Shown: in pieces, positions 25,126 through 33,062 of the stretch
How positions within the stretch are numbered: the first letter of the stretch is position 1
Layout: each line of letters starts with the position of its first letter
Source of the DNA: Streptomyces sp. NBC_01451
GTDB lineage: Bacteria > Actinomycetota > Actinomycetes > Streptomycetales > Streptomycetaceae
Assembly: GCF_036227485.1 (NCBI RefSeq)
Contig: NZ_CP109479.1
Span: 7,378,001 to 7,442,000 of the forward strand
DNA length: 64,000 nt
Reading direction: 5' to 3'
Translations under genes and position numbers: made by a program
Notes under the pieces: generated by a model
What the model was told of the DNA's origin: nothing
Database searches by the model: none
The model's input: only the letters and a program-made list of their open reading frames with translations

Positions 25126-25992
25126 TCAGGGACGGCCGCGGTCGGCCAGGGACAGGGTTCTGCGGGCCGCCGCGACCACCGCGGCGTCGATGAAGCGGCC
25201 GTCCGGGAGGGCCTGGGCGCCCTCGTCCGTCGCCGCCGCCTTGACGATCCGCTCGGCGTCCTCGATCTCCTCCGGGGTGGGGAGGTACGCGCGTTCGATG
25301 ACCGGGAGCTGGCGGGGATGGATGGCCGCCCGGCCCAGGAAGCCCAGGGCGCGTCCGTGGGCGCAGGACACGGCCAGGGTGCCGAGGTCCCGGGTGTCCG
25401 GGTGGACCGACTGGGGCGGCGGGGCGAGTCCGGCCGCCCGTGCGGCCACGACGACCCGGGAGCGGCACCAGTCGAGGCCCGCGTCCCCTCGTACCCCCAG
25501 ATCGGCGCGCAGGTCGGCCTCGCCGAGCGCGATGCCGTGCAGGGCGGGGTGGGCGGTCGCGATGGCGAAGGCGTGTTCGATGCCGAGGGCGGTTTCGAGC
25601 AGGGCGTGGAGCGGGAGCCCGCCCCCGGTGGTCGTGGTCGTGGTCGTGGTCGTGGTCGTGGTCATGTTCGTGCGGGTGGCCACCCGCACGACCTCCTGCG
25701 GTGTCGTCACCTTGGGGAGCCGTAGGCCCGAGATGCCGGGGAGGCCTTCGAGGGCCCGGAGGTCGCAGGAGGCCCGAGGGCCGTCCAGGGCGTTGATCCG
25801 GACGTGGACCGGGACCGGCTGGGGGTCGGTGAGGCGCTCGGCGGTGGCCGCGCGGGCGTACTCCTTGCGGTCGGGGGCGACCGCGTCCTCCAGGTCGACG
25901 ACGACCACGTCGGCGCCCGAGGCGAGGGCCTTGGACACCACCTCGGGGCGGTCGCCGGGGACGTACAGCCAGGTCAGGGGGATGGCCGTCAC
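25126..25992 (-). CDS. CitE/HpcH-type CoA-ester lyase, 288 aa
   Basis: The protein belongs to the HpcH/HpaI-CitE family of Mg-dependent lyases acting on malyl-, citramalyl- or citryl-CoA-type substrates. LYVPGDRP, DLEDAVAPDRK, HVRINALDG, LETALGIEHA and GEADLRADLG are the expected landmarks, and GRAAIHPRQLPVI is the usual C-terminal motif. Residues 111-122 are twelve consecutive threonines, encoded by a hexanucleotide repeat in the loop before LETALGIE; this insertion is not a family feature. GTG 25992 overlaps the CaiB stop. It is last in the seven-gene leftward operon. Confidence 0.85.
   Translation of the reverse strand: MTAIPLTWLYVPGDRPEVVSKALASGADVVVVDLEDAVAPDRKEYARAATAERLTDPQPVPVHVRINALDGPRASCDLRALEGLPGISGLRLPKVTTPQEVVRVATRTNMTTTTTTTTTTTTGGGLPLHALLETALGIEHAFAIATAHPALHGIALGEADLRADLGVRGDAGLDWCRSRVVVAARAAGLAPPPQSVHPDTRDLGTLAVSCAHGRALGFLGRAAIHPRQLPVIERAYLPTPEEIEDAERIVKAAATDEGAQALPDGRFIDAAVVAAARRTLSLADRGRP
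25627..25662 (+). repeat. Hexanucleotide microsatellite encoding poly-Thr
   Basis: GGTCGT is repeated about six times in the coding strand complement, giving alternating ACC and ACG Thr codons. It changes length without frameshift only in steps of one or two Thr, and may be length-variable between strains. Confidence 0.85.
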
Positions 25993-27230
25993 AGGGCTCC
26001 CTCGGTTCGCAGGGCGTCGATGTCGGGCCCGGTGAGGCCCAGTTCGGTGAGGACGGCGGTGGTGTCCGCGCCGTGCGCGCGGCCTGCCCAGCGGATCGCG
26101 CCGGGGGTCGCGGAGAGCCGGAAGAGGACGTTCTGCATACGGATCGGACCGAGGTCGGGGTCCTCGACCGTGGTGATGGTGTCGAGGGCCTGGTACTGGG
26201 GGTCGGTCATCACCTCCCGTACGTCCTGGACCGGGGCCACCGCCGCCTCCGCCTTCTCGAAGGCCGCGACGACCTCGGAGTGGGAGTGGCGGGCGATCCA
26301 CGCGCCGACCGCCTCGTCGAGGACGTCCGCGTGGCGGGCGCGGTCGGCGCCGGTGGCGAACCAGGGCTCGTCGATCAGCTCCGGGCGGCCGACCAGACGC
26401 ATCACGCGCTCGGCGATCGACTGGGCCGAGGTCGACACGGCGACCCAGGTGCCGTCGGCCGTGCGGTAGGTGTTGCGGGGCGCGTTGTTCTGCGAGCGGT
26501 TGCCGGTGCGCGGCTGGACGTGGCCCAACTGGTCGTACCAGAGCGGCTGCGGGCCCAGGACGGTGAGGATCGGCTCGATGATCGCCATGTCGACGACCTG
26601 CCCCTCGCCGGTGCGGTCGCGGGCGGACAGAGCCGTCATGACCGCGTACGCAGTGGCCAGGCCCGCGATCGAGTCGGCGAGGCCGAAGGGCGGGAGCGTC
26701 GGGGGCGCGTCCGGTTCGCCGGTGATCGCGGCGAAACCGCTCATCGCCTCGGCGAGGGTGCCGAAACCGGGGCGGTGCGCGTACGGGCCGAACTGGCCGA
26801 AGGCGGTGACCCGGGCGAGGACCAGGCGCGGGTTGGCGGCGGACAGCTCCGGCCAGCCCAGGTCCCACTTCTCCAGGGTGCCCGGGCGGAAGTTCTCGAT
26901 GACGACGTCGGCGGTGGCGGCGAGCCGGAGGAGCGTGCTCCGGCCGCCGGGCCGGGAGAGGTCGAGGGTCATCGTGCGTTTGTTGCGGCCCAGCAGCTTC
27001 CACCAGAGGCCGATGCCGTCCTTGGACGGGCCGTGGCCCCGGGAGGGGTCCGGCTTCACCGGGTGCTCGATCTTGATCACCTCGGCCCCGAAGTCGCCGA
27101 GCATGGTGGCGGCGAGCGGGCCGGCGAAGAGGGTGGCCAGGTCGAGGACGCGAAGGCCGGTGAGCGGGGCCGCGGCGGTTGTGGTCCCACCGGCTGCGGA
27201 TGCGGGTGTGCTCGTCTCCGGTGTGGTCAT
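25989..27230 (-). CDS. CaiB/BaiF-type (class III) CoA-transferase, 413 aa
   Basis: The protein is a class III CoA-transferase, which moves CoA between acids without a free intermediate. GLRVLDLATLFAGPLAATMLGDFGAEVIKIE is cut here for brevity to its ends LRVLDLA and DFGAEVIKIE; DVVIENFRPG and PPFGLADSIAG with the nucleophilic Asp186 are also present. The 23 leading residues (Thr/Ala/Pro) look disordered. ATG 27230 overlaps the ribokinase stop by four bases, and its own stop overlaps the lyase GTG. A CoA-transferase followed by a CoA-ester lyase implies activation and cleavage of a hydroxy-dicarboxylic acid. Confidence 0.85.
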   Translation of the reverse strand: MTTPETSTPASAAGGTTTAAAPLTGLRVLDLATLFAGPLAATMLGDFGAEVIKIEHPVKPDPSRGHGPSKDGIGLWWKLLGRNKRTMTLDLSRPGGRSTLLRLAATADVVIENFRPGTLEKWDLGWPELSAANPRLVLARVTAFGQFGPYAHRPGFGTLAEAMSGFAAITGEPDAPPTLPPFGLADSIAGLATAYAVMTALSARDRTGEGQVVDMAIIEPILTVLGPQPLWYDQLGHVQPRTGNRSQNNAPRNTYRTADGTWVAVSTSAQSIAERVMRLVGRPELIDEPWFATGADRARHADVLDEAVGAWIARHSHSEVVAAFEKAEAAVAPVQDVREVMTDPQYQALDTITTVEDPDLGPIRMQNVLFRLSATPGAIRWAGRAHGADTTAVLTELGLTGPDIDALRTEGAL

Positions 27231-31997: not shown

Positions 31998-32006
31998 AGT
32001 GCGGGG

Positions 32007-33062
32007 TCACGGTCGTACCTCGGTTTCCATCGCCTGTACGGCGGGCTTCGCGCCCCATTTGCCGCCCTCGACCGGGGTCAGGAGTTCCGCGACGTCGAGG
32101 ATGTGGTGGCCCGCCATGGAGGGGAGGCAGGTGCCGCGGGCCGGGCCGATCGCCTCCGCCCACTCGGGCGGGATCGCCGAGGCGCCGCGGGTCGCGCCTG
32201 CCAGGGCGCCCGCCACCGCCGCTGTCGTGTCCGCGTCGCGGCCCATGTTGACGGCTGTCAGCACCGATTCCGTGAAGTCGCCGTCGGCCACCGCGTACGC
32301 GCCGAAGGCGAGGGCGACCGCCTCGGGGGCCAGGTCGGTCCAGGGGTAGCCGCCGATCACCACCGCGGAGCGGACCGCGCGTTCACCCCGGTGGGCGACG
32401 GCCACCGCCCGGCGCAGGGAGCGCGCCGTCCAGGAGTCGTCGGGGATCACCGCCAGGGCGGAGGCCACCACGGCGATGGTCGGCGCGCCCGCCATGGCCG
32501 CCGCCACGCCCGCCGCCACCGCCTGGCCGCCGTAGATGCCCTCGCCGTCGTGGCTCACCGAGCCGTCGATCGCCACCAGGCGGGCCGCCTCGCTGGGCCG
32601 GCCCGCAGCGAAGACGCCGAAGGGTGCCGCCCGCATGGCGAGACCGTCGCTCCAGGCGTGCCGGTGCTGGGCGGAGATGGGGGCCGCGAGACCCCGGCGC
32701 AGGTTCTCCAGAGTGCCGCGTTCGCTGAAACCGGCACCTCGGAAGGGCCCCTCGTCGAGGTCGGCGATCCACTGGTGCCAGGCCGCCTCCACATGGGCCG
32801 GGGTGAGGGCCGAGCCGTGCCGGGCGAGGAGGAGGCCCGAGAAGATCGCGTACTCGGTGTCGTCGGTGCCGGCGGGGTTCTCGGCCACGTACCCGGTGAT
32901 GCGGCCCCAGCGGGCGCGGATCTCCGAGGGCTTCATGTTCTCGGCGGGGGCGCCGAGCGCGTCCCCCACGGCCAGACCGAGCAGGGCGCCGTGTGCTCTG
33001 TCGCGGAGCAGGGCGGCGTCCTGGTGCGCCGGGACCGAGGGAATGCAGGCGATCGATGCCAT
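32007..33062 (-). CDS. ADP-ribosylglycohydrolase family protein D, 351 aa
   Basis: Both metal motifs are intact: GTDDTEYAIF at 65-74 and NMGRDADTTAAVAG with Asp276 and Asp278. The start motif RAHGALLGLAVGDALGAPAE is canonical, and HDGEGIYGGQAVAAGVAAAM is a characteristic mid-protein segment. The ATG at 33062 is preceded by GGAGGAG at ideal spacing, within a CTCCGGAG palindrome that could partly hide the ribosome site. It is the first gene of the leftward run and is divergent from the VIT1-type transporter across 316 nt. Confidence 0.88.
   Translation of the reverse strand: MASIACIPSVPAHQDAALLRDRAHGALLGLAVGDALGAPAENMKPSEIRARWGRITGYVAENPAGTDDTEYAIFSGLLLARHGSALTPAHVEAAWHQWIADLDEGPFRGAGFSERGTLENLRRGLAAPISAQHRHAWSDGLAMRAAPFGVFAAGRPSEAARLVAIDGSVSHDGEGIYGGQAVAAGVAAAMAGAPTIAVVASALAVIPDDSWTARSLRRAVAVAHRGERAVRSAVVIGGYPWTDLAPEAVALAFGAYAVADGDFTESVLTAVNMGRDADTTAAVAGALAGATRGASAIPPEWAEAIGPARGTCLPSMAGHHILDVAELLTPVEGGKWGAKPAVQAMETEVRP

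Follow-up and report, generated by a model that had tools for sequence, protein, structure and literature searches.

Why should four ADP-ribosylglycohydrolase (ARH) family genes stand in series with a ribokinase, a CoA-transferase and a CoA-ester lyase on a Streptomyces chromosome? We asked this of the seven genes ArhA–ArhD, RbsK, CaiB and CitE, which lie at positions 25126–33062 of a 64 000-nt stretch of Streptomyces sp. NBC_01451 (contig NZ_CP109479.1, positions 7 378 001–7 442 000; hereafter the window, meaning this whole stretch). The explanation that we favor, with a probability of roughly 0.55, is a catabolic operon, widespread among actinobacteria, that breaks down an imported conjugate of a sugar or riboside with an organic acid, the seven genes making up its enzyme half. 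This catabolic reading is favored because relatives carry an importer and local LacI control in the same operon, and under it the ARHs more likely digest a compound from outside the cell than edit proteins. The analysis covered gene content, co-occurrence, the series of losses, a shared operator, motif states and selection. The features of the window are as follows.

32007–33062, minus strand: ArhA, ADP-ribosylglycohydrolase family, 351 aa (PF03747, 202.7 bits)
30755–31882, minus strand: ArhB, ADP-ribosylglycohydrolase family with a degenerate metal site, 375 aa (PF03747, 126.3 bits)
29514–30758, minus strand: ArhC, ADP-ribosylglycohydrolase family, 414 aa (PF03747, 159.3 bits)
28120–29526, minus strand: ArhD, ADP-ribosylglycohydrolase family, 468 aa (PF03747, 161.8 bits, residues 120–422)
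27227–28123, minus strand: RbsK, ribokinase-type PfkB kinase, accessory, 298 aa (PF00294; TIGR02152, 312.3 bits)
25989–27230, minus strand: CaiB, CoA-transferase family III fold with Gly157 for the catalytic Asp (PF02515, 412.4 bits)
25126–25992, minus strand: CitE, HpcH/HpaI-type CoA-ester lyase, 288 aa (PF03328, 121.7 bits)
33063–33378, no strand: gap of 316 nt between ArhA and a VIT-family gene, the position of the importer and LacI genes in seven other Streptomyces

Named genomes were searched with an ArhC alignment and the best 80 of 591 relatives were scored, the counts being no census; a locus was taken as scorable when it had at least 6.5 kb on both sides of ArhC. Twenty-eight of these loci were not labelled Streptomyces (20 scorable) and 52 were labelled Streptomyces, one of them Kitasatospora-named (44 scorable). 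Outside the genus, the operon starts with LacI, two permeases and a binding protein (LacI, BPD_transp_1 twice and SBP_bac_1 by their Pfam names), followed by the same enzymes, and the nearest solved relatives of the binding protein are mostly sugar-binding proteins. LacI, both permeases and the binding protein were present in all 20 scorable non-Streptomyces loci, together with ArhD, CaiB and CitE in 18 each, a gene termed c5 in 14, RbsK in 13, ArhA and ArhB in 8 and a secreted-type esterase in 7. The operon was found in Herbiconiux, Agreia, Leifsonia, Micromonospora, Glycomyces, Nocardioides, Kribbella, Microbispora and Candidatus Nanopelagicaceae, and also on two Trueperaceae (Deinococcota) contigs from metagenome assemblies (L134 and L159). 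Its smallest form, in a 1.3-Mb genome, reads LacI-permease-permease-binding protein-ArhC-ArhA-ArhB-CaiB-CitE. Since the operon occurs in freshwater Nanopelagicaceae, to which this small genome belongs, as well as in soil, leaf and marine actinomycetes, its distribution suggests that the substrate is a common environmental compound.

The c5 gene (L118, positions 13448–15394, and its homologues; not in the window) encodes about 650 aa, with an FGE/EgtB-like domain at the C terminus and no Pfam match in the N-terminal part. We tried c5 as a route to the identity of the sugar and make no claim from it, as the structural model had a mean pLDDT of 55.6 and Foldseek returned formylglycine-generating enzymes and amylase-type barrels with low TM-scores. 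A separate search with ArhB in 345 genomes of the class gave 20 regions outside the genus, 17 of which carried the importer set. The other three (L098, L108 and L109) represent a second type of ARH/importer locus, in which ArhC is missing and an ArhA-ArhB pair has another LacI, other ABC permeases and another binding protein as neighbors. In L098, ArhD-like and RbsK-like genes are present too.

Among the 44 scorable Streptomyces loci, 37 were located at the site between gltB/VIT and lgt that the window operon also occupies. CaiB and CitE were present in all 37 and RbsK in 18, while the importer was found in 7 and LacI in 8, the eighth (L141) having LacI without the importer. The importer was also present in six of the seven loci at other sites, so that importer and regulator together were found in 13/44. 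A tree of importer states with 77 rows, from which eight loci were left out, had 17 rows with the importer and 60 scored without it, and required three changes; three of the 60 (L138, L153 and L170) are on contigs that end before the importer position. In the window operon, the importer and LacI are absent and the 316 nt of 33063–33378 are too short to hold them. The possibility that a displaced importer lies elsewhere in the window genome was rejected: the best of 31 permease matches was 39% identical to the operon permease, compared with 69% between the permeases of Actinacidiphila and G224 (family f21), and the matches were taken as background paralogues. The first-pass annotation had remarked that no transporter is present and had suggested an internal substrate on that ground. 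Its observation is true of the window but not of many relatives, and the deduction fails, since this lineage has lost the importer, which still stands at the same site in 7/37 Streptomyces loci. Given the importer in relatives, an internal-metabolite pathway was rejected as a general explanation, and stays a rival for the window lineage.

We then measured how tightly the acid-handling half of the operon is tied to the glycohydrolases in the 345 genomes of the class, taking ArhC matches at E up to 1e-60. The CaiB clade was defined as the rows of at least 600 bits in a search whose list, at E up to 1e-120, comprised 105 genomes. ArhC was found in 55 genomes, with a single match each, the CaiB clade in 80, and neither in 265. 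All 55 ArhC genomes carried the CaiB clade (Fisher p about 1e-44, not corrected for kinship), and in 52 of them, including 27 of the 30 outside the genus, the two genes were within 15 kb. In two of the three distant cases (G171 and G365) the ARH operon visibly ends without CaiB and CitE, and in the third (G181) the ARH contig ends too early; CaiB and CitE were together elsewhere in each of these genomes, followed in L220 by a TRAP DctM gene (by Pfam) and in L222 by its homologue. The refuting result named in the first-pass annotation, a separation of the acid half from the glycohydrolases in most relatives, was not seen. On the 55/55 association, the acid module as a mere neighbor was rejected, and the view that the ARHs and the CoA-transferase/lyase pair form one functional unit is strongly supported by this genomic pattern. 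We infer that CaiB-containing clusters with and without ARH genes supply CaiB and CitE with the same or a similar acid.

The relatives also share an operator. The sequence CTGTAAACGTTTACAG recurs without change in loci ranging from Nanopelagicaceae to Actinacidiphila, and a palindrome centered on AAACG was counted manually in 43/56 regions upstream of LacI. With at most one mismatch, CTGTAAACGTTTNCAG was found near LacI in 21 of 25 chosen loci, at one or two sites each, nearly all of which were 50–230 bp before the LacI match (the site in L112 is just inside the called start). Searching 14 whole genomes gave operator matches in 10, none being found in the window genome (G000) or in three Microbacteriaceae, and a control with the reversed pattern gave 0 in all 14. 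No operator match with up to three mismatches was found anywhere in the window, and a search for palindromes upstream of window ArhA and ArhB gave one unrelated 12-mer only.

By coordinates, the overlaps in the window copy are 4 nt for ArhB/ArhC, 13 nt for ArhC/ArhD, and 4 nt each for ArhD/RbsK, RbsK/CaiB and CaiB/CitE, while ArhA is set apart by a gap of 124 nt before ArhB. This agrees with the earlier description of a seven-gene series, the last six genes being coupled by overlaps. The same gene order with similar overlaps was found again in other Streptomyces, which indicates that the arrangement in the window is not due to chance. To the sides of the operon lie lgt (24074–25063) and, at the other end, the VIT-family gene (33379–34110) and gltB. 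Of the nine PF03747 matches in the genome, whose chromosome measures 10.27 Mb, four fall in this operon.

Selection was evaluated by comparing the window with seven importer-less Streptomyces relatives in which the VIT gene directly follows ArhA. The median omega was 0.16 for ArhA, 0.14 for ArhB, 0.21 for ArhC, 0.29 for ArhD, 0.30 for RbsK, 0.22 for CaiB and 0.33 for CitE. These values (0.14–0.33, against 0.12–0.31 for the flanking genes Lgt 0.31, DsbA 0.29 and VIT 0.12) indicate purifying selection, and the window operon is not decaying. Within the genus, an ArhD orthologue was counted manually in 27 of the 37 genomes of a first sample, with two more having a 44–45% identical paralogue only. 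Among 26 Streptomyces loci of relatives, two of which sit at contig ends, CaiB and CitE were present in 25 each, ArhC in 24, ArhB in 23 and RbsK in 19 (7 without). The only locus without CaiB (L063) is a relict holding only ArhD and RbsK. At two sites (L062 and L064) ArhA alone is left, so that ArhA is partly independent of the other operon genes. Broken copies were also observed: the ArhD match is split in two in L056 and L058, as is the ArhC match in L059, and there is a decayed copy in L065 (G010), where ArhB is gone and the CitE match is short.

All four ARHs exceed the PF03747 cut-off of 26.2 bits (126.3–202.7 bits) and are distinct paralogues, as had been noted earlier. Identity is 25–32% for the five pairs with alignments longer than 200 residues; the alignment of ArhB with ArhC spans 55 residues only. 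ArhD has an additional N-terminal region of about 110 aa. The metal motif of DraG/ARH enzymes consists of T/S-D-D and D-x-D-T/S, the positions of which we placed by alignment to DraG and MJ1187. In ArhA, D67, D68, D276, D278 and T279 are invariant in 35 rows and residue 66 is T in 27 and S in 8. The TDD of ArhC is invariant in 46 rows and its DxDS is present in 45 of them, with one gap. ArhC is the best conserved of the four ARHs. ArhD has EDDD in place of the DraG TDD and keeps the C-terminal DxDS, with DDD, D404 and D406 invariant in 41 rows. ArhB has the first of the two C-terminal Asp residues in 0/32 rows and the second in 29/32. The NCBIfam equivalogs for DraG and Tri1 were far under cut-off (DraG 79.6 against 337.05, Tri1 52 against 490). 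Elsewhere in the window genome, an ArhD paralogue with 46% identity (C1, 1586161–1587213) has counterparts in several relatives; no operon genes adjoined it in the five regions examined.

Family III CoA-transferases use a catalytic Asp as the nucleophile, as described in PMC9813914. Window CaiB belongs clearly to this family (412.4 bits against a PF02515 cut-off of 23.3), but the position of the catalytic Asp is occupied by Gly157, and Gly is found there in 56/56 rows, 19 of which come from non-ARH settings. Glu161, four residues past Gly157, is invariant in the same 56 rows. Among the five solved relatives shown, four have Asp at the nucleophile position and the benzylsuccinate transferase subunit has Gly. 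The Asp-less CaiB, constant as it is, is a mechanistic puzzle in itself, and the standard CaiB mechanism assumed earlier for this gene is not sustained. Arg, Glu and Asp are the active-site residues of CitE-like HpcH/HpaI lyases, and the corresponding Arg65, Glu133 and Asp160 were each found in 52/52 rows of CitE, which is under the NCBIfam equivalog cut-offs for the citrate lyase beta subunit (139.2 against 443.4) and RipC_Ccl (138.4 against 375). Window CitE also has a stretch of some twelve Thr residues (around residues 108–122) that is missing from 12 aligned relatives. RbsK passes the ribokinase equivalog TIGR02152 (312.3 against 299.65), with Asp246 in 32/32 rows, and is under a second ribokinase model, PRK11142 (263.1 against 341). 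The first-pass annotation had reported intact motifs in A, B and D, letters that it left undefined, and in RbsK, CaiB and CitE; the residues are kept in RbsK, CitE, ArhA, ArhC and, in a variant form, ArhD, but not in CaiB, with Gly for Asp, or ArhB, with one Asp gone. RbsK was present in 36/64 scorable loci of the best 80 relatives and absent from 28/64, and the operon of the 1.3-Mb genome lacks both RbsK and ArhD. RbsK was therefore dropped as a core part of the operon, and ribose, which the earlier proposal had expected as a product, is not supported as an obligatory one.

From these observations we propose a substrate class, a reaction for each enzyme and an order of steps. The substrate, an organic acid conjugated to a sugar or riboside, would be imported via a carbohydrate-type (CUT1-like) ABC importer, and its glycosidic bonds would be hydrolyzed by the putatively active ArhA, ArhC and ArhD, with ArhB as a degenerate partner, probably of ArhA. 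RbsK, where present, would phosphorylate the freed ribose, and the Asp-less CaiB would turn the acid into a CoA ester, which CitE may cleave to central metabolites. The window lineage has lost the repressor, importer and operator and kept the enzymes, which may hence be fed by another uptake route or an internal pool. More tentatively, and at somewhat less than even odds, this could be a pan-actinobacterial, horizontally shared system (also reaching Trueperaceae) in which proteins of the ARH fold serve as a set of glycosidases acting on an undescribed, imported conjugate of a sugar and an organic acid, and are joined to an Asp-less CaiB that may use the invariant Glu instead.

Several observations weigh against the catabolic operon for an imported conjugate. 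CaiB is without the family nucleophile, leaving its role in CoA transfer putative, and RbsK is missing from so many scorable loci (28/64) that the sugar may be one other than ribose. The operator was not found with up to one mismatch in L116, L129, L150 and L061, the last of which has the importer, and G407 was the only genome with extra operator sites (two) outside the operon. The window strain is without a close copy of the operon permease (best 39%). Finally, 25 of the 80 CaiB-clade genomes had no ArhC match, one of them (G382) being an operon broken across contigs (L213), and the CaiB gene was often beside MmgE/PrpD and cyclase genes, so that CaiB also serves other pathways. These other settings lend themselves to a rather improbable alternative, in which the substrate is a nucleoside-like N-riboside, the acid comes from its base, and the operon is linked to heterocycle or acid clusters sharing CaiB. 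The CaiB clade does occur without ArhC beside hydantoinase/allantoinase-like, Asp/Glu-racemase, cyclase, MmgE/PrpD and TcuA-like genes, and in a CaiB tree of 68 rows the ARH-linked and other CaiBs are interleaved, with four changes, at least three of them forced by starred branches (L109 was scored as 'other', though an ArhA-ArhB pair is about 8 kb away). However, the ARH operon has no ring-opening enzyme and its importer is of the oligosaccharide type. Among 20 ArhC-less or exception regions counted manually, an MmgE/PrpD cluster gene was found in 12 and a cyclase cluster gene in 11, one or two members of each cluster having been checked by Pfam; some of these regions also have genes of the Asp/Glu-racemase, hydantoinase-like and TcuA-like FAD types. 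In the regions L208–L226, the Asp-less CaiB clade stands in clusters of all these gene types under an IclR-type gene annotated by eye, and the clusters resemble an acid or heterocycle pathway.

It is similarly doubtful that the role of the ARHs is to remove ADP-ribose from proteins, nucleic acids or antibiotics, with RbsK recycling ribose and CaiB and CitE as bystanders. PF03747 membership speaks for this, as does the listing of SCO2028–SCO2031 of S. coelicolor as uncharacterized DraG/ARH homologues in an ADP-ribosylation setting in PMC9411070 and PMC5087735, the 2016 paper of the two omitting SCO2031. On the other hand, the constant company of a carbohydrate importer, LacI control and CaiB speaks against such a role, and SCO2028 and SCO2030 showed no activity on a uracil-ADP-ribose probe, one substrate only (PMC13036486); locus order makes these two the probable ArhA and ArhC. 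In the open-licence literature, we recognized no paper describing the operon and none for SCO2032 or SCO2033. For the window lineage alone, it is unlikely, though conceivable, that the enzymes were repurposed for an internally made conjugate once the importer was lost. This would suit a strain that has no importer, LacI or operator and keeps its enzymes under purifying selection, and a large importer-less group (60/77 tree rows, with the three contig-limited loci named above), but a different importer may have taken over. If the more tentative pan-actinobacterial reading is correct, a good part of the annotated Streptomyces DraG/ARH proteins would act in nutrient catabolism and not in ADP-ribosylation editing. 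Many uncharacterized Streptomyces ARH genes are read as reversers of ADP-ribosylation, and the operon offers a testable alternative whose partners can be named: the importer with its repressor and operator, and the pair that cleaves the acid.

Itaconate degradation, one of several known systems with which the operon was compared, uses an itaconate CoA-transferase, a hydratase and a citramalyl-CoA lyase, with CaiB-type and CitE-type enzymes in series; CitE of the window resembles its lyase in scoring against RipC_Ccl (below cut-off, as given above), but the window operon has no hydratase gene and its CaiB has no catalytic Asp. With the DraG/ARH ADP-ribosyl-acceptor hydrolases, the operon shares PF03747 and the metal-binding residues of ArhA and ArhC, whereas its genes score below the DraG and Tri1 equivalogs and keep the genomic company of import and acid catabolism. 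The yegTUV operon of Escherichia coli, according to PMC10819704, likewise combines an importer (nucleoside:H+ symporter-like), an ARH and a PfkB-type sugar kinase, but it has no CaiB or CitE and its importer is of another class; that paper assigns no function to it either. Although the operon differs from LacI/CUT1 carbohydrate-utilization operons in that its hydrolases have the ARH fold instead of being common glycoside hydrolases, that a CaiB/CitE acid module is attached and that the window copy has no importer or repressor, the loci of its relatives are built like them, with LacI, two permeases, a binding protein, hydrolases, a sugar kinase and one operator.

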